34,927 nt of DNA from a virus. The position numbers were made by a program, and so were the translations under genes. Below, piece after piece: positions 1-22,496 of the stretch; the first letter of the stretch is position 1; each line of letters opens with the position of its first letter. Under the pieces are notes generated by a model. The model did not search any database. It saw only the letters and a list, made by a program, of their open reading frames with translations, and had not been told where the DNA came from. The stretch is from the IMG/VR virus record IMGVR_UViG_3300028031_000090, positions 1 to 34,927 of that record; one strand, 5' to 3'.

Positions 1-360
1 ATGCCCTTCAACCGATTACTCGCTTTGCTGTTATTTTCTTTTGCTTTGTCTGCCTGCGCTGGCGGACAAACTGCACAAATGGAGGTGGATGTCAGCGCGC
101 ACTCAGAGATCCCGCCCATCGATGGATCAAATAATGCCGTTACGTCGAAAAGTACCGTTAATAGCCGTGTGTCTCAAGATGTGTCTAAAAGTACCGGGTC
201 TAGCGTTTCCGGTGGCGTTAGAGCCATTGATAAAATTACAACAAATAATGGCATCGAGGTAAAATCACTGATCGTTATTATTGTTGTTTTTATTTTTGCA
301 ACTTTGTTTTTCTCGATGATTATACCCCGGCCTAAATTCATCACGGCAATTTTCCCGTGA
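1..360 (+). CDS. Candidate unimolecular spanin (lipoprotein with C-terminal membrane segment)
   Basis: 119 aa. The N-terminus is a lipoprotein signal: basic n-region, leucine-rich core and lipobox LSAC with C19 as the lipidated cysteine. A Ser/Thr-rich periplasmic stretch (about 20-88) follows, then one strong membrane span (about 89-108) and a short tail. An outer-membrane lipid anchor plus an inner-membrane C-terminal span is the layout of unimolecular spanins such as phage T1 gp11, which disrupt the outer membrane in the last step of lysis. The stop overlaps the GTG start of the amidase gene, so the pair is a lysis cassette. The function rests on topology and context, not on sequence similarity. 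No good ribosome site is visible upstream across the presumed circular join. A different membrane-tethered lipoprotein is the alternative. Confidence 0.62.
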   Translation: MPFNRLLALLLFSFALSACAGGQTAQMEVDVSAHSEIPPIDGSNNAVTSKSTVNSRVSQDVSKSTGSSVSGGVRAIDKITTNNGIEVKSLIVIIVVFIFATLFFSMIIPRPKFITAIFP

Positions 361-881
361 GGAAATTTATTTTTCTGCTGGTTTTTTTTGCTTCATTAGG
401 GTCATCCGCTATGGCTTCCGATCTCGATATCTCTTATCTTGGGTCAGATCATTACAGCAGCCGGAACGGCGGTAAAATACGGCGCATTGTGCTGCATACA
501 TGCGAGGGGGCCGGTGCAGGGTGTATTAGTTTTTTGCGGCATAATTCGCGCAAAGTGTCCGCGCATTATGTCATCACATCATTGGGTCAGGTTGTCCAAT
601 TGGTGAAGGAGCAAAATCAAGCTAACCACGTACGGTGTTGTAATGAGGATAGTGTTGGTATTGAGCATGCTGGTTATGCAGGCAAAAATGCGTGGACTGA
701 CGCACAGTTGGCGGCGTCTTTTGCGTTAATTTGCGATATTTTAAAACGCCATAATATTCCGCTTTCTGCCCACAGCGTACAATCTCACGCAACATTAGAT
801 CCCTCTCGTCGATCCGATCCTGGCCCCTATTATCCTTGGCTTAAAATGATGCGGACAGTCAGGGCATGTTTAAATCAATAA
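357..881 (+). CDS. N-acetylmuramoyl-L-alanine amidase endolysin with signal peptide
   Basis: 174 aa, GTG start overlapping the previous stop (GTGA). Residues 1-20 form a Sec signal ending in AMA, with SDLD following, so the enzyme is probably exported without a holin pore. The rest is an amidase_2/PGRP fold related to T7 lysozyme. Candidate zinc ligands are H47 in VLHTCEG, H144 in QSHATLDP and D154 in RRSDPGP; Y71 in SAHYVI is the likely catalytic tyrosine. It would cut the bond between MurNAc and L-Ala of peptidoglycan at lysis. It follows the spanin candidate and precedes the late promoter at 891, so this cassette must be driven from further upstream, unlike lambda, where lysis genes follow pR'. 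Family assignment is firm. Confidence 0.88.
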   Translation: MRKFIFLLVFFASLGSSAMASDLDISYLGSDHYSSRNGGKIRRIVLHTCEGAGAGCISFLRHNSRKVSAHYVITSLGQVVQLVKEQNQANHVRCCNEDSVGIEHAGYAGKNAWTDAQLAASFALICDILKRHNIPLSAHSVQSHATLDPSRRSDPGPYYPWLKMMRTVRACLNQ

Positions 882-890
882 ATAAATAGA

Positions 891-919
891 TTGACAGTAT
901 ACACTAATATAGTTATGAT
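891..919 (+). promoter_or_regulatory. Strong sigma70 promoter, candidate late promoter (pR'-like)
   Basis: The -35 TTGACA (891-896) and -10 TATGAT (914-919) are separated by exactly 17 bp; the predicted start is near 926. The intrinsic terminator at 937-972 follows immediately. A strong constitutive promoter running straight into a terminator ahead of the late genes is the lambda pR'-tR6S/tR' arrangement used by Q antiterminators, and a Q-like gene is present at 25029. A Q-binding element between or around the hexamers cannot be assigned by eye. Confidence 0.82.
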
Positions 920-936
920 CATGTCATCGTGAAATT

Positions 937-972
937 AAAGCCTACCGAACAAACATTCGGCGGGCTTTTTTT
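937..972 (+). terminator. Intrinsic terminator just after the late promoter
   Basis: Stem AAAGCC (937-942) with GGCTTT (963-968), a 2x2 internal loop, inner stem CCGAA (945-949) with TTCGG (956-960), a 6-nt loop, and a run of seven T (966-972). Transcripts from the 891 promoter would end about 46 nt after the start unless antiterminated. Confidence 0.85.
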
Positions 973-1008
973 ATGCCTATAAAAAAATAACTGACAATCC
1001 CACCAACA

Positions 1009-1072
1009 GGATTATGGCAATTTCGTCCATGCAATGTGGACTCAAAAAATCACTTCCAAATTGCCATAATCC
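1009..1072. repeat. Nested inverted repeat upstream of the late genes (cos or RNA-structure candidate)
   Basis: The outer arms GGATTATGGCAATTT (1009-1023) and AAATTGCCATAATCC (1058-1072) are perfect 15-bp inverted copies. Inside them, GTCCA (1025-1029) and TGGAC (1037-1041) form a second hairpin with a 7-nt loop. No T-run follows, so it is not an ordinary terminator. It lies between the tR'-like terminator and the first late gene, roughly where lambda keeps cos. It could be a cos or pac element, a structured late leader RNA, or a protein-binding cruciform. The sequence alone does not decide. Confidence 0.85.
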
Positions 1073-1092
1073 ATCCATTCAAGGAATACGAC

Positions 1093-1248
1093 ATGCTCCC
1101 TAATCAATACACGATTGACGGTTTTAATTATTGGAGTTGGGATGATCTCGTCAACTACGTGGACGGTGAATACACGATCAAAAAAGCATTTAGAATACAA
1201 AATAAAAATACTGCAAAACACTTTGTGTTATTGCTTGAGCCAGTGTGA
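1093..1248 (+). CDS. Small hypothetical late protein (51 aa)
   Basis: Start ATG at 1093, chosen because AAGGA sits 8 bases upstream; an earlier in-frame GTG at 1036 lies inside the inverted repeat and has no such site. The product is rich in Trp, Tyr and Asp (WSWDDL) with no family recognised. It is the first gene after the late promoter, terminator and inverted repeat, and its stop is directly followed by the ATG of the next gene, so the two are translationally coupled. No function is assigned. Confidence 0.6.
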   Translation: MLPNQYTIDGFNYWSWDDLVNYVDGEYTIKKAFRIQNKNTAKHFVLLLEPV

Positions 1249-1449
1249 ATGGTTAAATATAGACTCACGGGGACTAATCATTATCTATTTAGGGATCGTG
1301 ATTTTTACTTGTCGTGGGAGATGATTGTGGCGTTATTTTCCGGTCAATTTAAAATTCTTTCTGCGGTGCGGATTGTATCCGAACACAACCGCACTTTATA
1401 TGAGCTAAGTGTCGAAATATGCAAAGATCTCAATACCCCTCAAATTTGA
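1249..1449 (+). CDS. Small hypothetical late protein (66 aa)
   Basis: Begins at the base after the previous stop codon, which implies coupled translation. 66 aa, mixed basic and aromatic, with alternating hydrophobic residues but no clear membrane segment and no recognised motif. Possibly a paralogue-like companion of the preceding 51-aa gene, since both contain short Tyr/Trp-rich segments followed by a conserved-looking hydrophobic end; this is weak. No function is assigned. Confidence 0.5.
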   Translation: MVKYRLTGTNHYLFRDRDFYLSWEMIVALFSGQFKILSAVRIVSEHNRTLYELSVEICKDLNTPQI

Positions 1450-1469
1450 AAGCAATCATACCCAAAACA

Positions 1470-1604
1470 ATGGACAAAGATAAAATAAAATCCGATGCGT
1501 GGAAACAACAAAAAATATTGGTTGTGAACTTAGAAGAATCTCAGCTTGATTGGGCACACAAACAAATGGCTTTAGAGCTCGGTCACTTTATATATGGCGG
1601 ATGA
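1470..1604 (+). CDS. Small hypothetical protein (44 aa), doubtful
   Basis: ATG at 1470 gives 44 aa; the frame is open back to 1419, but that part overlaps the previous gene. The first half is Lys/Asp-rich and the second contains LEESQLDWAHKQMALELG, which faintly recalls the conserved Leu-Asp-Trp segment of small phage proteins in the DUF2591 group. No clear ribosome site is visible. Its 3' end overlaps the start of the small terminase gene by 11 bases, which mildly supports it being real. Confidence 0.35.
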   Translation: MDKDKIKSDAWKQQKILVVNLEESQLDWAHKQMALELGHFIYGG

Positions 1605-2085
1605 TGCATCGACCACAAAGTGGTCTATCTCCGCATTGTCAAGAGAATTACAACTGGATCGACGCACTGTTAGCAGCATCATACAAAGTAATGGCATTGT
1701 GCCGGTTGATACCGATAGGGGTAATCCGGTTTATCGGCTGTTAGATTGCGTGCAACTGTTGGTTGACAGTAAATTCAAGGGCGCGTTAGTCCAAACGATT
1801 GGGGATGTCGATCCCGAACAAATGACACCCGCCGACCGCGTGAAATATTGGGACTCTGAAACCAAAAAATTTAAGTACCTTGAGATGGTTGGGGAGGTTG
1901 TCCATGTATCTGCTTTGCGGTCTGCTTTGGCAGAGTCGTTTAAGTCTTTGGCACAATTGTTGGATACTTTACCCGACATTTTGGCGCGCAGCGCAAATTT
2001 GTCCACACATCAAATCATGGAAATCGAATTACTCATCGATGATAGACGCAAATCACTATATGAGTCACTTATTAATACCGATTAA
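1594..2085 (+). CDS. Terminase small subunit (Nu1-like / DUF1441 type)
   Basis: 163 aa. Residues 8-32 form a helix-turn-helix (WSISALSRELQLDRRTVSSI), the DNA-recognition part of Nu1-type small terminases. The middle (about 72-95, PADRVKYWDSETKKFKYLEM) is the charged helix typical of DUF1441/Nu1 proteins, and the C-terminus has the segment LDTLPDIL before a long helix. It would bind the packaging site and bring in the large subunit for DNA cutting and headful or cos packaging. In lambda the large subunit follows immediately; here it is 14 kb away at 16048. The start ATG lies inside the end of the small upstream frame, with no strong ribosome site. Confidence 0.8.
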   Translation: MADDASTTKWSISALSRELQLDRRTVSSIIQSNGIVPVDTDRGNPVYRLLDCVQLLVDSKFKGALVQTIGDVDPEQMTPADRVKYWDSETKKFKYLEMVGEVVHVSALRSALAESFKSLAQLLDTLPDILARSANLSTHQIMEIELLIDDRRKSLYESLINTD

Positions 2086-2091
2086 AAAACT

Positions 2092-2719
2092 ATGAAAACA
2101 ATTATATCCTTGTACGACACCCCATCCGTACTGCCAAAAAAACACCCCATGATCGACTTTTACCATCCACATTGGTGGGCATTTATTGCATTTCGGAAAA
2201 AAAACCAATGATTTAACCATTATCGCGAATGGCAAATACTGCAAAGTGGCCATTGATGCTGCAAAATCATTTGCCCAGGTTAATCAACTGATTTTGATTG
2301 ACCCCATCGGGTTACCCGTCGATGTGGCTATCCCATCTAACGTGATACACATTGATGTGTGGTACAGCTCTAATGTTGATATCTCGGATAATCCGCATTT
2401 AGGATCCTGTGGGCATACCTTGGGTACTCATGGATTGTACAAAGATTTCCGCATTCACAATCACGATAAAATGACACAGTTTAGTGTCACCAGTTCACCG
2501 GGGGATGTCTTCAATCACGATAAAATACAGTATTTTGGTGGCTTAATAGAGCGTTTTTGTCGCAATCATGATCGTAAAAATGAGTGGCGTTTGATGAACG
2601 AAGTGCCGAATCCATTTTTGAACTGCTTCGATGGCTCGGAAATGGTCAAAGCAATCACACGATTGTCTGAGTATGAGCGGTTTTGGGACTCTTTTGATGG
2701 GTATAAATTTAATGACTAA
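2092..2719 (+). CDS. Unknown protein gene interrupted by a frameshift at an A8 run
   Basis: ATG at 2092 opens a frame ending at a TGA at 2209-2211. A run of eight A (2197-2204) lies just before this stop. The +1 frame is then open to 2719 with no good start of its own (only a TTG at 2186). Joined at the A-run, the product is about 208 aa, beginning MKTIISLYDTPSVL and continuing smoothly through HWWAFIAFRKK into TNDLTIIANGKY. Seven A instead of eight would restore one frame. This may be a sequencing indel, slippage or phase variation, or a real knockout. The protein is not recognised; it is His/Asp-rich in the middle. It occupies the place between small terminase and gpW where lambda has gene A. 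Confidence 0.6.
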
Positions 2720-2740
2720 AACGCTTTTTTGGAGAAAAAC

Positions 2741-2941
2741 ATGCAGTGCAATATTCACCAGGCAACAAAAATACAAATCGAGCAAACGGTTTGGACGACT
2801 CAATCCGGCGTAAAACGGTCTACAACATGTATCAAAATTACACTCAATTCCTCCGAGCCCGATGAACATCAGATTATTTTGTATTCAGATGATCCATCGT
2901 TAGGCTTAAATATCCTGCCAGTATCGTTCAAACAAGAATAA
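2741..2941 (+). CDS. Small hypothetical protein (66 aa)
   Basis: ATG at 2741 has GGAG 7 bases upstream. The sequence is Ser/Thr-rich with likely beta strands (CIKITLNS, HQIILYSD) and no recognised family. Its last 16 codons and stop lie in the first unit of an 86-bp tandem triplication, so the C-terminus has been copied downstream twice as untranslated remnants. It sits between the frameshifted gene and the gpW homologue. No function is assigned. Confidence 0.55.
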   Translation: MQCNIHQATKIQIEQTVWTTQSGVKRSTTCIKITLNSSEPDEHQIILYSDDPSLGLNILPVSFKQE

Positions 2942-3148
2942 CCCACTTAAATATCCTTCATAAGACACATTCATGTGATCCATCGTTAGGCTTAAATATC
3001 CTGCCAGTATCGTTCAAACAAGAATAACCCACTTAAATATTCTTCATAAGACACATTCATGTGATCCATCGTTAGGCTTAAATATCCTGCCAGTATCGTT
3101 CAAACAAGAATAACTCACTTAAATATCCTTCATAAGACACATTCATGT
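2891..3148 (+). repeat. 86-bp unit in three tandem copies spanning a gene junction
   Basis: Copies at 2891-2976, 2977-3062 and 3063-3148 differ at only a few bases (for example ATATCC/ATATTC and ACCCAC/ACTCAC). Each begins GATCCATCGTTAGGC and ends CATTCATGT. Each carries the last 16 codons and stop of the upstream small gene plus the leader and ATG of the gpW gene, so the gene junction was triplicated. 86 is not a multiple of three, and only the first unit is read as coding. Confidence 0.95.
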
Positions 3149-3372
3149 ATACAAAAAAACATTTAGAAATCGTCGAAAATGCAATCATTGATATCACAAT
3201 GGGTGTCCAGGTTGTTAAGGTTAAAACCCCATCCGGCGTTGAAACCGAGTATAACGCGGCAAATCTGAAAGATCTTCATACACTCAGAAAGACGATACTG
3301 CTAGACATCCGCACACAAAATAACAAGGTAAAAAGAGGATCACGAAAAACGGTGATATGGGTGGATAGATGA
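3145..3372 (+). CDS. Head-tail joining protein, gpW-like
   Basis: 75 aa, the size of lambda gpW (68 aa). It has the family's pattern: an N-terminal helix (ENAIIDITMG), a beta hairpin (VQVVKVKTPSGVETEY) and a second helix (NAANLKDLHTLRKTILLDIRTQ) with a basic tail. gpW plugs the portal after DNA filling and prepares the tail-binding site. It lies directly before the portal, as in lambda, with an ATGA overlap. The ATG is inside the third 86-bp repeat unit; the other two units carry the same ATG followed by a different continuation. Confidence 0.78.
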   Translation: MYTKKHLEIVENAIIDITMGVQVVKVKTPSGVETEYNAANLKDLHTLRKTILLDIRTQNNKVKRGSRKTVIWVDR

Positions 3373-4823
3373 GCGCATGGAGCCATATTTTTGGTCTTTT
3401 CTCGGGCGGAAAATCCTCTTACAAAGCAGCAAATCGCACAAGAAAGCAAAATAAAGACTGGGGTAGTAATAATTTAGGGCCAAATTCAGCCATATTAGAC
3501 TCTAACCAAACAGCACGAAACCGAGCCAGAGAAGCGATACGAGATAACCCACATGCGCAAGCAGGGCTTGAAGCGTATGTCTCCAATCTGGTTGGTAGCG
3601 GCATTGTCCCCCGATGGAAAAATTCAGAGCTGCAAGACCTGTGGGATAAGTGGGTTATAGAATGTGATTTTGATGATTGTCTGGATTTTTGTGGATTGGA
3701 GACATTGGCGACCACAGCGTTAATTAGCGCCGGTGAATGTTTTGTTCGGGCGCGGTATATTGATGACCCGAAAGCTGTGGTACCGCTTCGCCTCCAATTG
3801 CTGGAGTCGGATATCTGTGAGGATGCCACCAGTCACACGCCTGATGGAAATCGCAAAACACTCGGCATCGAATTTGACCATAGCGGAAAGCGCCTCTCGT
3901 ACTGGATGTATCCAGACCACCCCGGTGAATTAAATCAAAATTCCCACCACTTAACGATACCCATCCCCGCCAGAGAAATCGCCCACTTGTACCGCCCAAC
4001 TCGGCCCGGACAAGTACGCGGCATGACTTGGTTGGCGACCATTATTGAAAAATTGTATGAGCTGGAACGGTATGAAGACGCCGAATTAAAGCGCAAAAAA
4101 TTTGCGGCTAGCATAACCGCCTTCATTACCACGCCAGTCGAAACAGGAGATGATCTATTTGGATCTGACGAAGGACAGGACGATGACGGCAACCAAATAA
4201 GAGGCATCACACCAGGAGGTGCCTATTATGGCGACCCTGGTGAAGAGTTTAATCTAAGTCAACCAGCCGAAGTGGGATCAACCACGATTGACTGGGTAAA
4301 ACAGCAACTCAGAGACATATCGATGGGCTATGGCGTCAGCTATGAAATGATGTCTGGCGACCTATCCGACGTCAATTACACCTCTCTGCGGTTTGGTTTG
4401 AGCCAATTTAGGCGCAAATGTGAGCAAATACAAAAAAACATCCTAATACACAAATTTTGCCGAAAAATCGGGCGTTGGTTTGTCGAGGCCGCCGTATTAT
4501 CCGGCAAAATCGATATACCCGATTTTTGGGATAACCCTGAAGAACATACGCCAGAAGAGTGGCGTGCCCCAGGATGGGAAGGTGTTGATCAGTTCAAGGA
4601 CGCGATGGCAGACATGTTAGAAGTGCGCGCCGGATTCGCAACATTGTCAGAAAAAATTGTGGAGCGCGGCGAAGACCCAAGGACAACCCTAGAGCGCATC
4701 AAGGCAGAACGAGAAACGTTGTTAGAGATGGAAATAACGCTAGATTCCAACCCGAACACCACACAGAAATCAGGCGAGTTACATGACTTACAAACAGCGG
4801 CAATTATCAACGATATTGCATAG
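3369..4823 (+). CDS. Portal protein, lambda gpB family
   Basis: 484 aa (lambda gpB is 533). The N-terminal segment carries NRTRKQNKDWG and an arginine-rich helix ending RDNPHAQAGLEAYVSNLVGSG, followed by the portal core with LQLLESDIC, the IPAREIAHLYRPTRPGQVRG segment and MTWLATIIEKLYELERYEDAEL, all familiar from lambda-type portals. A dodecameric portal forms the DNA channel at one capsid vertex and docks the terminase. The start overlaps the gpW stop by four bases, and the end overlaps the protease start by 41 bases, matching lambda's W-B-C spacing. Confidence 0.92.
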   Translation: MSAWSHIFGLFSGGKSSYKAANRTRKQNKDWGSNNLGPNSAILDSNQTARNRAREAIRDNPHAQAGLEAYVSNLVGSGIVPRWKNSELQDLWDKWVIECDFDDCLDFCGLETLATTALISAGECFVRARYIDDPKAVVPLRLQLLESDICEDATSHTPDGNRKTLGIEFDHSGKRLSYWMYPDHPGELNQNSHHLTIPIPAREIAHLYRPTRPGQVRGMTWLATIIEKLYELERYEDAELKRKKFAASITAFITTPVETGDDLFGSDEGQDDDGNQIRGITPGGAYYGDPGEEFNLSQPAEVGSTTIDWVKQQLRDISMGYGVSYEMMSGDLSDVNYTSLRFGLSQFRRKCEQIQKNILIHKFCRKIGRWFVEAAVLSGKIDIPDFWDNPEEHTPEEWRAPGWEGVDQFKDAMADMLEVRAGFATLSEKIVERGEDPRTTLERIKAERETLLEMEITLDSNPNTTQKSGELHDLQTAAIINDIA

Positions 4824-6063
4824 ACCCATGATGATGCATGAGCATCATTTCAATGCATACATCTCAACCGTTGCACAGCAAAATCACCTAGACCTTGGGC
4901 ATCAACAATGCTCAGTGGCCAAACCGTTAGCATTAACAATGAAAGCACCTGACGGCGTATCCATCATTGGGGTTGACGGCATGCTATTACACCATCCCGC
5001 AAATGGCATGCACTGCACAACGTATACCGATTTATCCAACGCGTTGGATACGGCCATGTTGGACGATGCAATACATACCCTGGTTTTTTTAATTTCTTCC
5101 GGCGGCGGAGAAGTCGAAAGAGTGTTCGACCTTGCTGAAAAGATTTACCAATCACGCAAGCAAAAACGCTTAATCGCCGTGGTTGACGAATCGGCCTACT
5201 CCGCCGCATATCTGATCGCCAGCGCATGCACTGAAATCATTTTGCCTCAAACAGGCGGAGTTGGTTCAATTGGCGTTATCGCAAAATATTACGATATGAC
5301 CCAGGCCAATGAATATCAAGGCGTCAAAGTGCACACCATCCGATCCGGTGAGCAAAAGGCATTTGGTGACCCTGACGTTAGCATGAGCCTGGAACAATTG
5401 GAGGCCGCCCAAGCGGATGTCGACGACATCCGACAAATGTTCGTGGCCGCCGTTGCCAAATATCGAAACCTATCACCACAAGATGTGATGGAAACTGAAG
5501 CCAAAGTCTACAAAAACCAACACGCGGTTGATATTGGTCTAGCAGACCAGGTTATCCCCGTCGAAAATTTCTTTACCTCATTAAGCTCCAAAACACAACA
5601 AACACAACAAACACAACAAACACAACAAACACAACAAACACAACAAACACAGGATGAAATAATGGCCGATAAAGATCGCGTCCTAGAGTTATTGAGCATT
5701 AGCTCAGACATGGCACAAGTCACAAAATGGATCGAAAACGACACGAGTGTCGAAGATGCCAAAAAGGAAATGGAAGCCGAAAATCCTGAACTGGATGAAC
5801 CCGCTGAAACGGAAACCGCTTTAAGCGCTGCTGAATACGCCAAAATCACGCAAATGTGCCACGAAGTTAGAGGTGCAAACGGAGCAGCAGAAGCCACCGC
5901 CTACATCAAAAAAGGCTTAACGGTCGCCCAAGTCAGACAGGACTTATGGTCACATATGGTCACATCATCCACGACAAGCCCAACACGATCAGCCGTACCC
6001 ACAGCATCCACGAACCCATTGCTCGATGCCGCATTATTGGCGGCCAAAGCCGCAAAGCAATAA
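4783..6063 (+). CDS. Capsid maturation protease (S49, lambda gpC-like) with C-terminal scaffold region
   Basis: 426 aa. The start at 4783, inside the portal gene, is supported by similarity of its first 30 residues to the lambda gpC N-terminus. The protease core has the SSGGGEVERVFDLAEKI loop and helix, nucleophile S140 in DESAYSAAYLIAS and the general-base K192 in SGEQKAFGDP, giving the Ser-Lys dyad of peptidase S49. A (TQQ)6 linker (about residues 271-288) then leads to a scaffold-like domain also made separately from an internal start (see 5662). It would process the portal and scaffold inside the prohead. Context (portal before, gpD and gpE after) confirms the role. Confidence 0.92.
   Translation: MTYKQRQLSTILHRPMMMHEHHFNAYISTVAQQNHLDLGHQQCSVAKPLALTMKAPDGVSIIGVDGMLLHHPANGMHCTTYTDLSNALDTAMLDDAIHTLVFLISSGGGEVERVFDLAEKIYQSRKQKRLIAVVDESAYSAAYLIASACTEIILPQTGGVGSIGVIAKYYDMTQANEYQGVKVHTIRSGEQKAFGDPDVSMSLEQLEAAQADVDDIRQMFVAAVAKYRNLSPQDVMETEAKVYKNQHAVDIGLADQVIPVENFFTSLSSKTQQTQQTQQTQQTQQTQQTQDEIMADKDRVLELLSISSDMAQVTKWIENDTSVEDAKKEMEAENPELDEPAETETALSAAEYAKITQMCHEVRGANGAAEATAYIKKGLTVAQVRQDLWSHMVTSSTTSPTRSAVPTASTNPLLDAALLAAKAAKQ
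5593..5646 (+). repeat. 9-bp tandem repeat, six copies (TQQ linker)
   Basis: ACACAACAA is repeated six times without change in frame, followed by ACACAG. It encodes (Thr-Gln-Gln)6 between the protease and scaffold parts of the gpC-like protein. Unit length keeps the frame, so copy number could vary without breaking the gene. Confidence 0.97.
5662..6063 (+). CDS. Nested scaffold protein, Nu3-like (internal in-frame start)
   Basis: ATG at 5662 is in frame with the protease gene and has its own ribosome site AGGATGAA just upstream. The 133-aa product (MADKDRVLELL...) is acidic and helical in its first half, then Ala-rich, ending in LLDAALLAAKAAKQ. Lambda makes its scaffold Nu3 in just this way, from a start inside gene C. 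A scaffold directs assembly of the major capsid protein and is removed or degraded by the protease. The Thr/Ser/Pro-rich part near the end may be the flexible link to the capsid-binding tip. Separate expression is inferred from the ribosome site and the family's habit. Confidence 0.75.
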   Translation: MADKDRVLELLSISSDMAQVTKWIENDTSVEDAKKEMEAENPELDEPAETETALSAAEYAKITQMCHEVRGANGAAEATAYIKKGLTVAQVRQDLWSHMVTSSTTSPTRSAVPTASTNPLLDAALLAAKAAKQ

Positions 6064-6081
6064 CAGCAATAAAGGAAATAT

Positions 6082-6525
6082 ATGAGCTTTATCCACCAAG
6101 ACCCTCAATTTACCGATCTAGTGCACCAAGAAGCCACCGAATTACAATTTTATTCTCGTGATTCTGCACCTATTGCAGTCGACACCGTGGTTCAATTTGG
6201 TCAAGTTTTGGGCAAAATCACTGCCAGCGGTGAATATGTGCCCGTTGACCCAGCGGCAACCGACGGATCTGACGTTGCCAAAGTCGTGGCGATTGTGCCA
6301 GTTGACACCACTGACCAAACGGATGCCATCGACATCCCTGTGATGGCGAGACAATGCTACTTGATTAACCAAGGCTTGGTGTTTGGCGACCTCACCGAGG
6401 CGCAAATTACAACCGCCACAGCAGAGCTGAAACAGGCTGGGATGCTGACCGTCAATGCTTCCGGACCGACATCCGATGTGGATCTGTTCGCATTGGGTTT
6501 TGAGCCAATCGGAAAGATTGTTTAG
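6082..6525 (+). CDS. Head decoration protein, lambda gpD family
   Basis: 147 aa, longer than lambda gpD (110). It starts after AAGGAAATAT. The middle and C-terminal part (GQVLGKITASGEYVPVDPAATDGS, AKVVAIVPVD, ALGFEPIGKIV) follow the gpD pattern of a beta-tulip trimer that caps three-fold sites and stabilises the expanded capsid. It lies between the protease/scaffold gene and the major capsid gene, the lambda order. Confidence 0.88.
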   Translation: MSFIHQDPQFTDLVHQEATELQFYSRDSAPIAVDTVVQFGQVLGKITASGEYVPVDPAATDGSDVAKVVAIVPVDTTDQTDAIDIPVMARQCYLINQGLVFGDLTEAQITTATAELKQAGMLTVNASGPTSDVDLFALGFEPIGKIV

Positions 6526-6593
6526 CTGTAATAACGTAATCACTCAACCCCACCTAAAAGCTACCTAGCTAGCTCCCCCATCCGGGAACCCCC

Positions 6594-6615
6594 GCTCACA
6601 TTCGTGGGCTTCAAA
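6594..6615 (+). terminator. Weak stem-loop with T-run between gpD and gpE genes
   Basis: GCTCAC (6594-6599) can pair with GTGGGC (6604-6609, one G-T pair) over a 4-nt loop, followed after five bases by a short T-run. It may be a leaky terminator or mRNA-stabilising hairpin adjusting gpD against gpE levels. The rest of the 108-bp gap holds nothing recognised. Confidence 0.25.
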
Positions 6616-6633
6616 TTTTTTCAAGGTAACACC

Positions 6634-7662
6634 ATGTCCCTAATACTCGACCCGTTCAAAGATTCCAATGCGTTTAACGCCTCAACCTTGACTAAGGCGA
6701 TAAATGTCTTGCCCAATATGTACGGACTGGTGAATGGAATGGATCTATTCCCCGTAGAATCTGTATCAACCACCAGCATCACAATAGAATACAACCAAGG
6801 GACGCTGCAACTTTTACAAACGGGCGAACGTGGCGCAGTAGGCACAGCCTTAACCAACGAAAAACGACGTGTTAAAAGCTTTGAAATCCCCCACATCCCG
6901 CACACGGGATCAATTTCCCCTCGTGATATCCAAAATTTGACCGCATTTGGTAGCACCTCGCTCGAAACGGTCAGTAATTTTATGGTCAAAAAATTGGCCA
7001 CGATGCGCAACAACCAAGCCATAACCCTCGAAAACCTGCGCGTTGGCGCACTCAAAGGTAAAATCAACGATGCTGACGGCACGCTTATTTATGACCTTTT
7101 TGACGAATTCAATGTGCAACAGCAAGTTTTCGACTTCAAACTTTCTGACCCTAATTTTGAAGTCCGAGAGCAATGCATGGCCATACAACTACATATCGAT
7201 GAAAACCTCTTAGGCGAAGTCATGAAGAACGTCTGCGTCATTGTCAGCCCGGAATTTTTCTCTGCCCTGGTTGGGCACAAAGAAGTGAAGGCCGCTTACG
7301 ACCGGTTCAACGATGGCCAAGCATTACGCGACAGTTTGCAATACGCGCCGTTTCAATATGGCGGTCTCAAGTTTATCCAGTACAACGCACGGGTGCCTTC
7401 TTTTGACGCACAGGGCAAATCAATCACGCGCCGATTTATCGATGAAAACGAAGGCCACGCGTTCCCAGAAGGCACTATGGATACGTTTAGAACCTACGCT
7501 GCACCTGCCGAGTTAATGCAAACCGTGAACAAACCCGGTGAACTATTCACCGCTTGGAACGTCGAGCGTGCAAACGGCACCGGCTGGGATTTGTATTGTG
7601 AGTCTAACCCATTGCCGATGTGCAGCCGACCCAACGTGCTGGTGAAAGTTGTGGCATCTTGA
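6634..7662 (+). CDS. Major capsid protein, lambda gpE family
   Basis: 342 aa from ATG at 6634, chosen over an in-frame GTG at 6604 because AAGG lies upstream and the length then matches lambda gpE (341). Family signs include the start SLILDPFKDSNAFNASTLTKAIN, the INVLPNMYGLVNGMDLFP segment, the basic LTNEKRRVKSFEIPHIPHTGSI stretch and a C-terminal block with AYDRFNDGQALRDSL and GKSITRRFIDENEGHAFPEGT. It builds the HK97-fold icosahedral shell. The stop overlaps the next start (TGATG). Confidence 0.95.
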   Translation: MSLILDPFKDSNAFNASTLTKAINVLPNMYGLVNGMDLFPVESVSTTSITIEYNQGTLQLLQTGERGAVGTALTNEKRRVKSFEIPHIPHTGSISPRDIQNLTAFGSTSLETVSNFMVKKLATMRNNQAITLENLRVGALKGKINDADGTLIYDLFDEFNVQQQVFDFKLSDPNFEVREQCMAIQLHIDENLLGEVMKNVCVIVSPEFFSALVGHKEVKAAYDRFNDGQALRDSLQYAPFQYGGLKFIQYNARVPSFDAQGKSITRRFIDENEGHAFPEGTMDTFRTYAAPAELMQTVNKPGELFTAWNVERANGTGWDLYCESNPLPMCSRPNVLVKVVAS

Positions 7663-7982
7663 TGTCACTGTCACCGGCGGCAAAAGCGGTTGCACATGCA
7701 ATCGCCAAAAGTGGCGATTATCATGCTACGTATCGATTTCAAAACGGCGACGAATTGGATACATTTGTGGATGTGTCCAGGAATACAGAAATTTATGGTG
7801 AAAATAATTTAGTTACAGATCATGGCACCATGATCTATATCGCCAAACACGCGTTATCATCCCCGCCAGAGAGTGGAGATGAAATCGAAATCGAAGATAA
7901 ATACAGCGGCGAACGCGAAATTTTTGAAGTTGACCAAATCATCAGTGATGATGGTTACCAAGTAAGCCTATTGGTTAGATGA
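7662..7982 (+). CDS. Head-tail connector, FII-like
   Basis: 106 aa from the ATG that overlaps the capsid stop. The beta-rich body (ATYRFQNGDELDTFVDV, DHGTMIYIAKHAL, GDEIEIEDKYSGEREIFEVDQIISDDGYQVSLLVR) matches the shape of lambda gpFII (117 aa), where an OB-like barrel with a 'parameter, then redefined value' pattern joins the filled head to the tail. Position between the capsid and gpZ-like genes agrees. Lambda's FI has no counterpart here. Confidence 0.68.
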   Translation: MSLSPAAKAVAHAIAKSGDYHATYRFQNGDELDTFVDVSRNTEIYGENNLVTDHGTMIYIAKHALSSPPESGDEIEIEDKYSGEREIFEVDQIISDDGYQVSLLVR

Positions 7983-7986
7983 TCGT

Positions 7987-8523
7987 ATGATTGAGTCAAA
8001 ATTGACCGTATCCGGCCTTAATGAGCTGGATCGGTTTTTAAAAAATTCGCCTGCGATGCTGAATAAAGCAACAAACCAAGCCCTGAACAAAGCCATCCAA
8101 AAAACTCGCACGTATACCAGCAGTTTAATTAGATCAGATCTTAATCTTAAGGCCAGGCTCTTACGGGATAATTTAAAGATCAGTCGATCAACCCGTAAAA
8201 CTTTACGGGCAAAAATCTCCGTTTCTGTGTCTTCCCCATCGCTGAATCAGTTTGCCGCCAAAAAAACCAAGCGGGGTATCACCCTGAAAATCACAAAAAG
8301 CGGCGGCAGGAAGCTGTATAAAAAAGCGTTTTTTATTCAGTCAAAAAATGGGCGGTTAGTGGCAAAGCGCACCGGCACAGGCAGGGATGATATACAGTTC
8401 CCCGTTGGGCCGTCTATTGATCAGTCATTTACGTTGTTGAAAGACAAAATTCGTACGTTCGCATCCGCCGAATTGAAACGATTGATCAACCAACAACTGA
8501 AATTTGTTTTAAAGGCCGTATGA
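7987..8523 (+). CDS. Minor tail protein, gpZ-like (tail completion)
   Basis: 178 aa (lambda gpZ 192). It shows the family's start SKLTVSGLNELDRFLKNSPAMLNKATNQALNKAIQKTRTYTSSLI followed by a basic body with many Arg and Lys, ending in ASAELKRLINQQLKFVLKAV. gpZ-type proteins finish the tail so that it can join the head. Four-base overlap with the next gene. The order FII-Z-U-V is that of lambda. Confidence 0.78.
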   Translation: MIESKLTVSGLNELDRFLKNSPAMLNKATNQALNKAIQKTRTYTSSLIRSDLNLKARLLRDNLKISRSTRKTLRAKISVSVSSPSLNQFAAKKTKRGITLKITKSGGRKLYKKAFFIQSKNGRLVAKRTGTGRDDIQFPVGPSIDQSFTLLKDKIRTFASAELKRLINQQLKFVLKAV

Positions 8524-8963
8524 AAAAAAGCCCCAGGTCATTATTAATTTTACAAGAGATACTGCGCCGTTTAAACGCGATACAGCAATCTAGCGGCTTT
8601 AATTTTTCGCTTGATGCGCATTTTAACAAGACAACCAGCACATCAGATGAGGCCTTAAATACCGTTACTCTGACCCCCAAAGACCAAAAACACCTCGATT
8701 TTTTACCCAAACATATACTTTGGGCGTGGGAAGTCGTGGTCGAAGCAACTTCCACCGCATCTGATCGACACAATGATTTGGATGCCGAATTACTGCGCAT
8801 TGACCTTGTGCAGGCCTTATTTATCTCCCCAGATGATCATCTCAACAGCCTATGCACCGTCTACGAACCCGAAACCACCAATGCATATTACCGCGAACCG
8901 GGATCTAACGTTATACGCGCAGAGGTTGTCATTCACATTCAATTCGCACAACCCATATTATAA
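8520..8963 (+). CDS. Tail terminator protein, gpU-like
   Basis: 147 aa, close to lambda gpU (131). An N-terminal helix (ILQEILRRLNAIQ) is followed by alternating strands and a central WAWEVVVEAT strand, then two more strands (NVIRAEVVIHIQF) at the C-terminus, the alpha/beta pattern of tail terminator proteins that cap the tail tube at its final length and present the head-binding surface. The assignment rests mainly on size, fold-like pattern and position between gpZ-like and tube genes. Start overlaps the preceding stop (ATGA). Confidence 0.62.
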   Translation: MKKSPRSLLILQEILRRLNAIQQSSGFNFSLDAHFNKTTSTSDEALNTVTLTPKDQKHLDFLPKHILWAWEVVVEATSTASDRHNDLDAELLRIDLVQALFISPDDHLNSLCTVYEPETTNAYYREPGSNVIRAEVVIHIQFAQPIL

Positions 8964-8972
8964 GGAGCCGCA

Positions 8973-9698
8973 ATGGCTGGATACAAAGCCGCAGGAACCC
9001 CATACATCAAACCCACGTTTATCCCCAATGCACCGTACAAGACCTTAGGCAATAGCGCCAAGTTCGAAATCGCTATCGATGAAAGCGTTTTGGATATCAA
9101 GAATTACCAGGGTGGCGGCGGTTTAGAAGAATCGTTTAGAGAGGTGAATAAGGCCACAATCAATATTGAGGCAAAAGACCTCAAAGCCGAAAACATTGCC
9201 TTGGCGGTTTTGGGGTCACTCAGTCAAGTGACCAGCAAAACCATTACAGACCAAGAGCATGCCATTGAACCTGGTGCCTATATCGACTTGGATGGTATCG
9301 GGCAAAAAAATATTGTGATCAAGAATAACGTATCGGGCGATCCGTTGTTGGAAGGTATCGATTACGAGATTAAACGCGGCGGCGTGGTCATCAGCGATAA
9401 TCCTGTGACCGAGTTGCAGACCCCTGCGTTGATTAGTTACGCAACATCCGACTCCCAAAAAGTCGAGGCGATTTTACGCGCCGGTGCGGAGTTTTCAATC
9501 ATTTTTGATGGCATCAATGAGATTACGCAAAAAGGCTTTAAGGCCAACATTTTTCGAGTGAAATTAGGCGCATCCTTAATCCCGTTTATCAACGGTGACG
9601 ACACCGGCACGCTGACGATTTCAGGCGATATTTTGCGGGATTCTAGCAAATCCGGGGTTGGTATTTCCAAGTTTTACAAAGTTGATTACGAAAAATAG
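8973..9698 (+). CDS. Major tail tube protein, gpV-like
   Basis: 241 aa (lambda gpV 246), with ribosome site AAGGAG upstream. The features are those of siphovirus tube proteins: an N-terminal segment followed by YQGGGGLEESFREVNKATINIEAKDLKAENIALAVLG (a strand with an inserted helix), Gly/Asp-rich turns, and a repeat of the strand-helix pattern in the second half (GFKANIFRVKLGASLIPFINGD). Hexameric rings stack into the tail tube. It precedes the chaperone and tape-measure genes, which is diagnostic. Confidence 0.82.
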   Translation: MAGYKAAGTPYIKPTFIPNAPYKTLGNSAKFEIAIDESVLDIKNYQGGGGLEESFREVNKATINIEAKDLKAENIALAVLGSLSQVTSKTITDQEHAIEPGAYIDLDGIGQKNIVIKNNVSGDPLLEGIDYEIKRGGVVISDNPVTELQTPALISYATSDSQKVEAILRAGAEFSIIFDGINEITQKGFKANIFRVKLGASLIPFINGDDTGTLTISGDILRDSSKSGVGISKFYKVDYEK

Positions 9699-9706
9699 GA
9701 GCTTGT

Positions 9707-10093
9707 ATGCCCGCAAATAATGTCGTGGTAATCGGTAGCACAGCCGTTACCATTCTTGAGCTGACGGTTGGCCAGATTCAATCGTTTTTTTCTTCCATGG
9801 CATCAGCGACACCCGTTGCTGATGCACAAAATTCTGATCCTGAACACTTCAGCCTGGTCAACGACATGTTGTTCCAGGACGTTTCATTGGACGAAATCGT
9901 TTTGATGACCACGTTATCTTACCAAGATCTGGTCTCAAATGACGATAATGGCTATCTACCATCCGATATTCAACGGGTGATCGATAAGATGAAAGCGATC
10001 AATCCGCATTTTTTTCAGATGCGGCAGAGAATGCTGGACATCACAGCCACGATGACAAACTTGACGACTTCAACGCCGCTCTCTGCCGCGTAA
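9707..10093 (+). CDS. Tail assembly chaperone (gpG-like)
   Basis: 128 aa, the unshifted product, starting after AGGAG. It lies between the tube and tape-measure genes, the fixed place of the tail assembly chaperone, which coats the tape measure during tail assembly. The sequence is helical and acidic with no strong motif. A slippery T7 run at 10009-10015 with an open -1 frame beyond it indicates a frameshifted longer form (see next entry), as in lambda G/GT. The shifted frame leaves this protein after F103. Confidence 0.78.
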   Translation: MPANNVVVIGSTAVTILELTVGQIQSFFSSMASATPVADAQNSDPEHFSLVNDMLFQDVSLDEIVLMTTLSYQDLVSNDDNGYLPSDIQRVIDKMKAINPHFFQMRQRMLDITATMTNLTTSTPLSAA

Positions 10094-10179
10094 TTTCAAA
10101 CGGACACCCCGCCGCCCTGACCTACCCTTGGTCTCTCTACCTTAGCGCCATCCAATGCCTTCAACCGATAACCATGTAA
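9707..10179 (+). CDS. Frameshifted chaperone form (gpGT-like), predicted -1 shift
   Basis: In frame the codons are CAT TTT TTT CAG, giving the heptamer T TTT TTT (10009-10015), which is slippery for -1 shifts. Past it the -1 frame stays open for 54 codons to a TAA at 10177-10179, overlapping the tape-measure start at 10155. The extension begins SDAAENAG and includes DDFNAALCRVISNG and LTYPWSLYLSAIQ, composition typical of a T domain. The product is 103 + 54 = 157 aa. In lambda the T domain recruits the tube protein. The shift itself is a prediction; no downstream stimulator was identified. Confidence 0.75.
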
Positions 10180-13100
10180 ACGTCGTTTTAACCGCACGTA
10201 CGTCCGAGTACCAACGTAACGTGCTGGCGGCCAAAAAAGCCAACGATCAATATCGACAATCGATAAAAGGCGTCATTGGGGATTTGTTGTCTTTGAGTGG
10301 TGCGGTTGGTATCGCAGGCGGCATCAAAGGATCTGTTAGCGCGTTTGCTGAGTTTGATTTCACCATACGCCGAGTCGGGGCGATTTCAAAAGCGACTAAA
10401 GCTGAGCTGTTGTTGCTCAATAACGTTGCCCGCACGACCGGCGCAACCACTGAGTTTAGCGCAACACAAAGCGCCGAGGCGTTGCTTTTTTTGAGCCAAG
10501 CCGGTTTGAGCGTGCAGGAGTCTATCTCTGCCCTGCCGGGTACATTACAACTGGCCTCAGCCGGAGCGGTGGATCTCGGTGTTGCTGCTGATATATCCAC
10601 CAATATTTTGGCCGGGTATGGCAAACACGTTGGCGAGTTGGCACGCGTCAACGATGTATTGGTTAATACGTTCACAAGCGCGAACACCAATCTTAACGAT
10701 TTGGGCGAGGCCTTTAAAACCGCAGGCCCAGTGGCCAAAGCCGCCGGACAAGATTTTGACGAAACGGCGGTATTATTGGGTGTTTTTGCGAATGCGGGCA
10801 TTAAGGGATCAATCGCCGGAACGGCACTTGCCGGTGGCATAGCCCGACTCGCCAAACCGACCAAAGAAGCCAACCAAGGCCTGAAAAACGTCGGCGTATC
10901 GGCCAAAGATTCCACCGGAAAAATACGGCCACTGCTGAAGATCATTGATGATTTGCGCAAAAAAAGCGTGAGCGTTGAAGATGCGCTGCGCATTTTTGGT
11001 CAGGAAGCGGGGCCAAAGTTTTTGGCCGCCATACAACAAACTCCCGCGTCCATTGCAAGGCTCAGAGCCGAGGTTAAAAAAACCGGCACTGCTGCTGCCA
11101 TCGCGACCGCACAGCAAGCCGGTATCAGCGGTGTATTGAAAAAATTGGGCTCGGCGATTGAATCAATTGCCATTAAAATGGGCGACACATTAGCACCTGC
11201 GGTCATCGCAATATCCAAATTCCTCGCGGCGTTTGCCGGTGAAATCACCGTTGCTGCGGTCACATTGGGTACTCTGTATACTGCGATTAAAATTGCCTCT
11301 TTGCTCGGGTTATCAACAGCATTACACGGGATTGGCGCGTCCGCGTTATTTGCTGCCATCGGTGCGAGTAAATTGACCGTCAATATGGGCCTACTGCGCA
11401 CTAGCATGGCCGCCCTGCCTGCCACTGCAATTGCCGCCCGGATAGCCATGGGCGGCTTGGCCACTTCTATTGGGGCTGCCACAGTTGCATCGTTAAAATT
11501 TATTGCGACCCCACTTGGGGCGATATTGGCGGCCATTGCCGCTGGTGTTTATGTCGCGGTGAGCGCATTTAATGCGCTCGAAGAGCAGCACCAGAGCACG
11601 TTGTCAAAAATCGAGGCGGGCACAAAAGCCGTCGAGGCATTTGTCAAACTCGAAGATAAAATCAAAGGACTCGGCCTGGAAGGCGTTGATAACGCCGTTA
11701 TCCAGATTAAGCGGCTACGAGCGGATGTGATACAAACCGGGCTGGATTTTGATACGGCGGCGAAAAAAGGCACGGAGTTTGTCGATAATCTGGTGACTGC
11801 TTCAAGCAACTTGAAAAATCTGCAAGTTGAGCAAGCCAAACTACAAATCCAGTTGGAAAAATTTGACCGAAAAGCGGCCGTCGACGCTGAAAAGGCGCTG
11901 ACAAAAACGGCAGCAGACGAAGCCAAAAAGCGTTTAGATGCGCTGAAATCCGAATTAGATAAATCGATTAAAGCCGAACAACAGGCGTTAAGAGACAAAA
12001 TACGCTTACAAAAAAATCTGCTTGAAACAAAAATTGATCTCGCGGAAAAAGCACGCGACAAACAAAAAGCCGCACTAGATAAAGCCTTAAACGATGAAAA
12101 AACGTTTGTTGCAGCGGCCAAACAGTTACGCGCCCAATTATCTGGCCAACAAGGCAGCCGAGAAAACCGTATACGCGATATTCAGCGCGGCCAACTGTCA
12201 TCAGGGGATCAGCAGAGAGATGTCCAAGATGAGGCGGCGAAAGCTTTATCCGAAGCGAAACGATTGCTCCGCTTAGGCCAAACCGAAAACGCCAAAAAAA
12301 TCGGCGAACGCATCTCTGAGTTGGTTAACCAAACTCAAGACGCGGATAAAAAAATTGCACTCATAGAGTCTCTTGGTGATATACAAGATCGTATCGTGCA
12401 ACGCGAGATACAAGGCCAGGTAGATTCGGCAAACGCTGCCAAAGAAAAATCAAACGTCCTGAAGGCCGCTAATCAAGCGTCAGAACAAAGTTTGGCACAA
12501 CTGAATAAGCGCTTAGCCGAGATTGCCACCAATCAAGCAAAATTAGAAAAAACAGAGAAACCACGAGACCCAGAAGATGTTCAATCGGACATCGTACAAG
12601 CGCAAACCGATGTTGATGCGTTGCAAGCTAAACTGGATGCGTTTAAACCCAACAAGCGCATCACTATCCAGAGCAATATTGATACGATTTCACAGCAAGT
12701 TGATGCGTTGAAATCTAATCTACAGACCCTGAAAAATCTTAAAATAGAGATTCCTTCACTGGGCCAACCTAGCCAACCGGGCCAACCAAACAAAACCACG
12801 AGCCAAGATGATGCCGGGCAACCGATCCGGCGTGCCAGCGGCGGTTTAGTGGATGGCGCCGGCACGGGGGTATCTGATTCAGTGCAGGCGTTATTGAGCC
12901 GTGGCGAGTTTGTTAACGATGCTCAAACCGTGGCGTTTCACGGCTCATCGACATTTTCGACGCTAAAATCCATGGCGCGTAATGGACAAAAATTAAACGC
13001 ATTTTCGCCAAGGCCGCAACGCGCGCTGCCTGCGATCCCGAGTGTGCCAACCGCACCGGCTACGCAAAACACGATGGCCAAAACGGTGATTAAATTTCCT

Positions 13101-13199
13101 GGGGTGCCTGAGTTTGAGGCCACGTTAAGCCCCGAAACACGTGATGATTTACAGCGTGTGTTGCGTAAACAAGCGATTAAACAAGGGCGCAAAAAATGA
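10155..13199 (+). CDS. Tape measure protein (TP901 type)
   Basis: 1014 aa. Residues about 55-240 match the TP901-type tape measure core: FDFTIRRVGAISKAT, LNNVARTTGATTEFSATQS, AADISTNILAGYG and AKAAGQDFDETAVLLGVFANAGIKGS. A long hydrophobic region with several membrane-like helices (about 345-475) may form a DNA channel in the host membrane. Coiled coil with repeated Lys/Ala/Gln helices covers about 540-880, and a Gly-rich segment ASGGLVDGAGTGVSDSVQALLSRGEFV lies near the C-terminus. At about 0.15 nm per residue it would set a tail of roughly 150 nm, a rule-of-thumb estimate. It starts inside the chaperone's shifted frame, and its stop overlaps the next start (ATGA). Confidence 0.93.
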   Translation: MPSTDNHVNVVLTARTSEYQRNVLAAKKANDQYRQSIKGVIGDLLSLSGAVGIAGGIKGSVSAFAEFDFTIRRVGAISKATKAELLLLNNVARTTGATTEFSATQSAEALLFLSQAGLSVQESISALPGTLQLASAGAVDLGVAADISTNILAGYGKHVGELARVNDVLVNTFTSANTNLNDLGEAFKTAGPVAKAAGQDFDETAVLLGVFANAGIKGSIAGTALAGGIARLAKPTKEANQGLKNVGVSAKDSTGKIRPLLKIIDDLRKKSVSVEDALRIFGQEAGPKFLAAIQQTPASIARLRAEVKKTGTAAAIATAQQAGISGVLKKLGSAIESIAIKMGDTLAPAVIAISKFLAAFAGEITVAAVTLGTLYTAIKIASLLGLSTALHGIGASALFAAIGASKLTVNMGLLRTSMAALPATAIAARIAMGGLATSIGAATVASLKFIATPLGAILAAIAAGVYVAVSAFNALEEQHQSTLSKIEAGTKAVEAFVKLEDKIKGLGLEGVDNAVIQIKRLRADVIQTGLDFDTAAKKGTEFVDNLVTASSNLKNLQVEQAKLQIQLEKFDRKAAVDAEKALTKTAADEAKKRLDALKSELDKSIKAEQQALRDKIRLQKNLLETKIDLAEKARDKQKAALDKALNDEKTFVAAAKQLRAQLSGQQGSRENRIRDIQRGQLSSGDQQRDVQDEAAKALSEAKRLLRLGQTENAKKIGERISELVNQTQDADKKIALIESLGDIQDRIVQREIQGQVDSANAAKEKSNVLKAANQASEQSLAQLNKRLAEIATNQAKLEKTEKPRDPEDVQSDIVQAQTDVDALQAKLDAFKPNKRITIQSNIDTISQQVDALKSNLQTLKNLKIEIPSLGQPSQPGQPNKTTSQDDAGQPIRRASGGLVDGAGTGVSDSVQALLSRGEFVNDAQTVAFHGSSTFSTLKSMARNGQKLNAFSPRPQRALPAIPSVPTAPATQNTMAKTVIKFPGVPEFEATLSPETRDDLQRVLRKQAIKQGRKK

Positions 13200-13705
13200 T
13201 CACACTGAAAATTAATGACGTTATCATACCGTTCCACGCCGCTGATGATTTGGCGCAAAGTCACACCCAAGAAAAAGGCGGTAGATTTCGGCGCATGATG
13301 TCCGGCCGTGGCACTCTGCAAACACATTGGTCTAAGTACGATATCCAGTTATCGGGCAGTGGCACCGTGCCTGCGGCATTATCATCAATCGATTTCAATG
13401 GCCCGGTATTACTGCATTGGGTCGCGCCACTTAGCTTATCTACCCAGACCACAACGGCAACCATACCAATGCCATTTAGGTTGGATTTTGCGCCGTGGTG
13501 TCTCGCCTTCAACGGCTTAGAAAAAAATGAAACCCCAGTCAATATGGTTGGCCAAACCGCCAACATCACCCCTGTACCCAACGCCCAATATTACGTTGTA
13601 AATTATTTACCGATTATGACCGTGATTTTGCCCGTCGGCGCAGAACAAAACAACGCAGTCTATCAAGCGGAGCATGGGTGGTCATTAAATCTTAAGGAAG
13701 TCTAA
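13196..13705 (+). CDS. Tail tip protein of unknown family (distal-tail position)
   Basis: 169 aa, beta-rich, beginning MITLKINDVIIPFHAADDLAQSH. It follows the tape measure directly, the place of distal tail (Dit) or lambda gpM-like proteins, and is coupled to both neighbours by overlapping start and stop codons. The GRGTLQTHWSKYDIQLSGSG segment, with strand-like alternation, suits a tail-tip ring protein. No family was recognised with confidence. Confidence 0.55.
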   Translation: MITLKINDVIIPFHAADDLAQSHTQEKGGRFRRMMSGRGTLQTHWSKYDIQLSGSGTVPAALSSIDFNGPVLLHWVAPLSLSTQTTTATIPMPFRLDFAPWCLAFNGLEKNETPVNMVGQTANITPVPNAQYYVVNYLPIMTVILPVGAEQNNAVYQAEHGWSLNLKEV

Positions 13706-15621
13706 TGCTGCTCAACCGTGACCGGCTCAATACTGCGACGCTTAACAGCAGCATAAACACGAAAAACCAACGCACGCTCATTGCGCAGGCAGCCTTTTCG
13801 CAAGGGGTTGACGTTTCAACGGTTGCGATTGGTCAGGCACAAACCGCAACCACAACCGATGTGGCGGCAGCGGTTGGCTACGCATCGTTAAGCGCCAATA
13901 CATCAACCGTTGATCATGCTGTTTACCGACAGCAGTCGATCACAACAACGTTTATCGATGTTAGCGGCCGCACTGAGCGGTATTGGTCAGCTCGCATCAC
14001 ATTAGACGGCGATGACATTAGCACATTTTTAACCGGCGTAATCGAAATTGAAGCCGAAGAAAACACCGCTCGAATTGCTGAGTTGTCTTTTGATCCGCCG
14101 AGACGCCCCAAAATCAACGAGTGGCTGGGTAAGCCGGTGACTATCGATTACCTGGAGTTGGATGCCAACGGCAATATAATATTGCAAAACCGTATTTTTA
14201 GCGGGTTGGTTGATACCCCAGAGTTTGACCCGACGAATCAGTTAGTGACATTAACATGCACCGACAATTATCAATCTGATCTCGATGCGATGAGCGATGC
14301 ACAAGTCAAAGCACTGATACCAGGCATTTTTAGCCCTGAAGTGTTGGATCCTGATGCCGTGGGGTTTGAGCTCGCACAAGCGTTGTTGACCACAACCCCT
14401 TCAAGCCTGGAAAAAAATCGGTTTGGGCAGTTTGTGTTATCGCCATGGGCTGTGACTAGCCCACGATTAACCTTTGATGATAACAATATTTATGATGAGT
14501 CCATACAAATCAGGATCACTGATTTGCGATCTATCACCAATCACGTCGATATCGATATTGCGTACCGATATCCGCAACAAAAAATCACCTCGGTATCGTA
14601 TCAGTATGGCGCGCCCGATCTCTGCGATATTGCGCGCGGCCAGCGTTTATTGCCACGCGATGCCGTCGTTAATGCTGCCAATGGGTTGTCCTTTGATGTC
14701 GATGGCATCGGGTTTGTTGATGCCCCTGCATCCACGACTGTGCAATGCCCTGATACCGTGCGATTTAACATTGATGAGGCCACCCGCAAGCAATTATGTG
14801 CGGGCTTTACGGTGCGCGCATCAAAACGATATACCCAAGATATGGTTGAGGTTGTACGCGTTAGCGTTACATCACCCTCGTCTATTGCATCGTTTGGACA
14901 AATAAAAACACAAGATAATCTGGCCATAGATACCGATGAAAAAGAAGCCGATAATCCGGTATCCGAATTTTCTGGTATTGCTGGATCGTCTATTGGCTCG
15001 TCTATTGGTTCATCCCGCTCCCCGCAGCCGCCAGGTATTGTTGATCAATATGATCAGGGCTTACGAGATAACGCGGCATTGTCCGTTATACAACAAGCCA
15101 AGACAAAAATTTTAGGCACGCATCGTAACAATCAAATCACGTTTGAAACGCCACTGAACAGCACAATAGAGCTGAGCGATCATGCTGCGTTGACCACTGC
15201 GTCAACAGAGGCGGTTGGTAAAGTGGGCCGCATGATACATACCTTAGACTTGGAGCAAGGCTTCGCACAAAGTAAATTGACCATTTTTGTGAGCCGAACT
15301 GAGAATAACGACATTACGCCATCCTCCGATTTTAACGCTCCACCGCCCAGGCCAAACACACCTGAGCTGGGGGTTAGTACCGAGGTGATCAGCGTTCGCA
15401 CGCTGGTTGGCGGCAAAAATGCCGATAAATTACCGAATACAGAGGGCGTCTCTGCGTATATGTTTGACCTCCAACCCAACCAGGGTGGCGCATCATTCGG
15501 CACTGCTTCATTACAATTAATCACCCCAGCTATACCAGAAATAGAGCTAAATGAAGCCACCTTCAGTGTGGATTCCAACTATTTCATCGCTATCCCCAAC
15601 GACCATCTCATCCTGTTCTAG
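13705..15621 (+). CDS. Probable tail hub / baseplate protein
   Basis: 638 aa. After a low-complexity N-terminus (Ala/Thr/Ser-rich, 1-70), residues about 95-200 read DDISTFLTGVIEIEAEEN, AELSFDPPRRP, WLGKPVTIDYLELD, RIFSGLVDTPEFDPTNQLVTLTC and DNYQSDLD. That is the barrel pattern of gp27/tail-hub proteins: 'structure, apply deformation, shift of axes', strands with loops. A linker near 430 has the repeat SSIGSSIGSS. It is likely the hub closing the tail tube, filling part of the role of lambda gpJ, which has no full-length counterpart here. Translation is coupled to the previous gene (TAATG). Confidence 0.62.
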   Translation: MLLNRDRLNTATLNSSINTKNQRTLIAQAAFSQGVDVSTVAIGQAQTATTTDVAAAVGYASLSANTSTVDHAVYRQQSITTTFIDVSGRTERYWSARITLDGDDISTFLTGVIEIEAEENTARIAELSFDPPRRPKINEWLGKPVTIDYLELDANGNIILQNRIFSGLVDTPEFDPTNQLVTLTCTDNYQSDLDAMSDAQVKALIPGIFSPEVLDPDAVGFELAQALLTTTPSSLEKNRFGQFVLSPWAVTSPRLTFDDNNIYDESIQIRITDLRSITNHVDIDIAYRYPQQKITSVSYQYGAPDLCDIARGQRLLPRDAVVNAANGLSFDVDGIGFVDAPASTTVQCPDTVRFNIDEATRKQLCAGFTVRASKRYTQDMVEVVRVSVTSPSSIASFGQIKTQDNLAIDTDEKEADNPVSEFSGIAGSSIGSSIGSSRSPQPPGIVDQYDQGLRDNAALSVIQQAKTKILGTHRNNQITFETPLNSTIELSDHAALTTASTEAVGKVGRMIHTLDLEQGFAQSKLTIFVSRTENNDITPSSDFNAPPPRPNTPELGVSTEVISVRTLVGGKNADKLPNTEGVSAYMFDLQPNQGGASFGTASLQLITPAIPEIELNEATFSVDSNYFIAIPNDHLILF

Positions 15622-15631
15622 GTAAAAATTT

Positions 15632-22494: not shown

Positions 22495-22496
22495 GG

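Follow-up and report, generated by a model that had tools for sequence, protein, structure and literature searches.

A candidate Q-dependent late promoter and terminator with a distant Q-like gene in a divergent phage-plasmid

Genes and features of the record

The window analysed here is the entire IMG/VR virus record IMGVR_UViG_3300028031_000090, which is 34,927 nt in length and of the phage-plasmid type. Its plus strand carries lambda-type terminase, portal, protease, capsid and tail genes in the region 1–18434, followed by a minus-strand block (18449–24849) of genes that resemble tail-fibre genes by appearance. Beyond this block lie the Q-like gene at 25029 and genes for a RepB-type primase, a DNA ligase, ParA, an integrase and RepA. 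The RepA gene is adjoined by 9.6 copies of a 22-bp repeat (33751–33962), which are probably the iterons of a plasmid origin. No close relatives were obtained from scans with the amidase, terminase, Q-like, capsid and portal proteins, the best terminase match reaching about 42–43%, and a DNA search against phage records yielded no match for the window.

Table 1 Features of the window relevant to the candidate late switch
Feature	Position	Strand	Basis or remark
orf1, lipoprotein with lipobox and C-terminal membrane segment	1–360	+	u-spanin-like by inspection
Endolysin, Amidase_2, with N-terminal signal-like segment	357–881	+	PF01510, E 1.5e-26
Sigma-70 promoter TTGACA-17-TATGAT, candidate pR'	−35 box 891–896, −10 box 914–919	+	11/12, 17-nt spacer
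CATCGT, possible −10-like pause element	925–930 (about −1 to +5)	+	sequence
Intrinsic terminator, candidate tR'	939–972	+	stem-loop of −15.2 kcal/mol, then T7
First small ORF past the terminator, with AAGGAA resembling a ribosome-binding site	1093–1248	+	sequence
Terminase small subunit (DUF1441)	1594–2085	+	phrog_141, E 4e-32; PF07278, E 6e-25
Remainder of presumed late operon: portal, protease, capsid and tail genes, tape measure	3369–18434	+	some roles by position
Terminase large subunit, displaced	16048–18033	+	
Membrane protein, uncertain	18054–18434	+	
Q-type antiterminator, distant, 129 aa	25029–25418	+	hhalign; phrog_79, E 0.06; phmmer

The window opens with a gene for a spanin-like lipoprotein, for which profile searches against phrog and Pfam gave no significant family match, and an endolysin gene whose stop codon lies 9–10 nt 5' of the −35 box of the candidate promoter (Table 1). 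Both lysis genes are located upstream of the promoter, not downstream of it, a position that was overlooked in the original prediction for this locus. The genes that follow the promoter and terminator on the same strand are packaging and virion genes, of which the terminase small subunit gene is the first recognisable one of the presumed late operon. No family was found for the small ORF that directly follows the terminator.

Several repeats and one unusual arrangement were observed along this strand. A perfect 15-bp inverted repeat (GGATTATGGCAATTT / AAATTGCCATAATCC) at 1009–1072, with an RNA hairpin z-score of −4.85, lies between the terminator and the first small ORF, which is the position of cos in lambda-like phages. 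The genes for the small and large terminase subunits are 14 kb apart, whereas they are adjacent in the annotated relatives inspected. Between the small subunit gene and the portal gene, an 86-bp unit occurs three times in tandem with 97% identity (2883–3148), roughly at the position of the large subunit in relatives. Within the protease gene, a nine-base repeat of 6.8 copies (5591–5651) encodes a QTQ-type tract.

Terminal repeats are absent from the record. It opens with the A of the orf1 ATG on the plus strand and closes with the RepA start codon on the minus strand, so that on joining the ends the two start codons would abut without space for ribosome-binding sites. Trimming at gene boundaries is therefore the most likely origin of these ends. 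For this reason, circularity and the distance of about 10.8 kb between the Q-like gene and the promoter, which had been calculated through the join, were rejected as unsupported.

The promoter-terminator pair and the Q-like gene

Both strands of the window were scanned for promoters scoring at least 9/12 with a terminator within 110 nt. The pair at 891–972 is the only one in the window, and its promoter is one of only two that reach 11/12. The stem of the terminator begins about 19 nt past the −10 box. The stem-loop (approximately 939–965) has the form AGCCTACCGAA-CAAACA-TTCGGCGGGCT and is followed by the T7 run at 966–972. If transcription starts at 926, the terminated RNA is predicted to be 45–47 nt long. 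Among 600 dinucleotide shuffles, seven pairs had a promoter scoring 10/12 or more together with a terminator of −12 kcal or better, while none had a promoter of 11/12. In view of the promoter score, the stability of the stem-loop, the T7 run and the rarity of such pairs in shuffles, the original description of TTGACA-17-TATGAT followed by a terminator, with a predicted transcript of about 46 nt, is borne out. The same scan detected no second pair ahead of the minus-strand operon (24850–25028) or past the Q-like gene.

Direct repeats of the Q-binding type at the promoter amount to just 5/6 matches with spacings of 7 and 10, and 53% of the shuffles were equal in this respect. Measured against shuffles, a tandem Q-binding repeat of the phage 21 type above chance level was thus not found in the promoter. 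The hexamer CATCGT shares A at +1 and T at +5 with the alpB promoter (PMC9371919), a match so short that it is common by chance.

The product of the gene at 25029 was compared by hhalign with an alignment of 27 Q proteins from which it had been left out. This comparison yielded a probability of 89, an E value of 2.4e-6 and a score of 39.3 over 105 columns of the 129 residues. In some 595 controls, the highest scores were 24.5 for the other ORFs of the window (196 in all) and 21.7 for 399 random ORFs. By this measure, the gene proposed as Q-like is present at 25029 and clearly outscores every other ORF of the record in Q likeness. A phmmer search of 37,897 ORFs from 172 terminase-related loci returned as its top two matches (E values of 0.03 and 0.04) genes of the loci L067 and L110, both of which lie upstream of late genes and are themselves members of phrog_79 (3e-10 and 1e-15). 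The E value of 0.06 of the 25029 product against this family ('anti-termination protein Q-like') falls short of the family cut-off. The product gave no match to PF06530 (Phage_antitermQ), the family against which its alignment had been suggested as a check, and a direct six-frame search likewise misses the gene. On the basis of its sequence we take the product to be a distant Q, though one that is outside PF06530 by the family's own cut-off.

When the product was modelled with a Q alignment, the resulting structure (pLDDT 78.9) was similar to sigma region 4 and to the Q21 structures. The Foldseek list places the Q21 entries first by whole-model TM-score, with TMq values of 0.48–0.56 and all E values above 0.2. 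This fold match is partly circular, because the alignment used for the model consists of Q relatives. The single-sequence AlphaFold model (pLDDT 43.5) is unreliable.

Comparison with known systems

Loci around related terminases (3.35 Mb) were scanned for promoters that score 10/12 or better and have a terminator no more than 110 nt away. Of 31 pairs obtained, 19 sit 0–53 nt downstream of Q-like genes. The Q genes of six representatives were assigned by PHROGs (types phrog_79, phrog_943 and phrog_753) and the others via the Q profile or sequence similarity. Since many of the loci are close to each other, the number of independent cases is lower, at about four promoter families. Prophages of Pasteurellaceae, Providencia and Edwardsiella (L067, L058, L134, L007, L014 and L053) feature TTGACA or TTGACT promoters with a terminator 60–76 nt further on, and it is the Q protein of L067 that the 25029 protein matches best in sequence. 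Unlike in the window, Q directly abuts the promoter in these prophages and the leaders are longer. Their promoters are located at least 1.5 kb upstream of the terminase genes, which leaves room for a downstream lysis cassette.

Phage N15 is also a phage-plasmid with a late promoter (41162–41190, −35 at 41162 and −10 at 41185) that is immediately followed by a terminator (stem-loop at 41229–41250). Its Q gene (gene 40, 35001–35747) is detached from the annotated late promoter by 5.4 kb, with about ten genes between. The N15 leader is slightly longer than that of the window when the same measure is applied (48 versus 41). Hence, neither the separation of Q from its promoter nor the shortness of the leader is new, although both had been put forward as novel features of the locus. 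N15 differs from the window in that its lysis genes are downstream of the late promoter, its Q protein has 248 aa and is encoded after cro, and it replicates as a linear telomere plasmid. In telomere phages, Q is found in an operon with cro (PMC4488713).

Phage 21 shares with the window a small Q protein and a terminator close behind the promoter (PMC6606751). Its Q has a sigma-region-4-like helix-turn-helix, which the 25029 product may have as well, but sequence identity between the two proteins is very low. Its tandem 8-bp Q-binding element (PMC8022706), which overlaps the end of its own Q gene and differs from the window in this respect too, has no counterpart found at the window promoter. 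A comparable principle is known from the alpB promoter of Pseudomonas aeruginosa, where the DNA-binding antiterminator AlpA is loaded onto a promoter that is followed by a terminator and where a −10-like element spans −1 to +5 (PMC9371919), about the same place as the candidate CATCGT in the window. In contrast to the window, this system belongs to a chromosomal programmed-death operon and AlpA is a member of another protein family.

Interpretation of the locus

A Q-dependent late switch is the best reading of the locus, because the pair is unique in the window, a distant Q is encoded and the majority of the pairs in relatives are located behind Q genes. We assign a probability of roughly 0.64 to the conclusion that 891–972 is the pR'-tR' late switch of this phage-plasmid and is opened by the Q-like protein encoded at 25029. 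Host RNA polymerase would start at about 926 and, without Q, would halt at the terminator after some 46 nt. Going by the biology of the Q family, the 129-aa protein would bind to the spacer of the promoter during a pause of RNA polymerase shortly after initiation, and would then join the polymerase and permit read-through of 939–972 and of later terminators. Read-through would turn on the genes for terminase, head and tail between about 1093 and 18434, and transcription of the lysis genes (1–881) would come from elsewhere. If so, the locus adds to a well understood class a divergent phage-plasmid whose Q homologue is very distant and whose late promoter has a short leader.

The lambda-type Q target originally predicted is retained as the best-supported reading on the strength of the hhalign result and the pairs in relatives; a direct match to PF06530 is not. 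Lambda itself has its lysis genes downstream of the late promoter, an order which is usual in lambdoids but not strictly defining, and its absence here counts against a Q switch. So does the leader of 41 nt, compared to 60–80 nt behind the Q genes of relatives by the same measure (which gives a value different from the estimate for a start at 926), though it is close to the 48 nt of N15. Given that the lysis genes lie upstream, the window does not contain a lambda-like lysis-first late operon, and the genes driven by a Q switch would be those for packaging and structure rather than those for lysis. A tentative extension, which we regard as rather doubtful, is that the switch serves packaging and virion genes only, with the lysis genes outside it, separately controlled, and the timing of lysis uncoupled from Q. 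Should this be correct, the upstream lysis cassette would be a natural case for how lysis timing is set outside the Q operon.

That a promoter-terminator pair always indicates Q was considered and rejected. The exact pattern was found in 77 viral contigs at large, mostly without a nearby Q gene, and only one of these has a Q-profile gene upstream. Among viral contigs there are also two large and well conserved families of tiny promoter-terminator units, 118–225 bp past endolysin genes (called by sequence inspection) and without a Q gene. As the unit of the window also follows an endolysin gene, with 10 nt between the stop codon and the unit, the strongest alternative is a very small gene for a non-coding RNA of about 46 nt, transcribed from its own promoter to its own terminator without antitermination. 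We nevertheless consider it unlikely and keep the Q switch ahead of it, since the contigs with endolysin-linked units are unrelated to the window and the window carries a Q-like gene for which it offers no alternative pair. The pairs of terminase relatives mostly follow Q genes, and no Rfam family matched the unit.

The two elements might also be unrelated, the terminator closing the lysis operon and the promoter serving the terminase operon by leakage through that terminator. A position 60 nt past the last lysis gene would suit the end of an operon, but the terminator would then be expected to come first, and with a strong terminator directly in its path the promoter would lose most of its transcripts. 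As the order of promoter and then terminator marks Q switches in relatives, this explanation appears less probable still. Least probable of all, with only a slim chance, is a real switch that is opened by another phage or host antiterminator. The distant nature of the 25029 protein and the location of its gene far from the site speak for this option, as do the Q genes of relatives, which usually touch their target. On the other hand, no ORF of the record comes near that at 25029 in Q likeness, and N15 demonstrates that adjacency is unnecessary.

The tiny units behind endolysin genes are highly conserved, with examples at 11324–11395 in L199, at 8991–9082 in L205 and in about two dozen similar cases among L198–L274, and are possibly small RNA genes. 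A further conserved promoter-terminator unit (TTGACAAATACAA...TATAATTGA...GCGGGCTTTTTT) was observed in L226, L227, L241 and L245.
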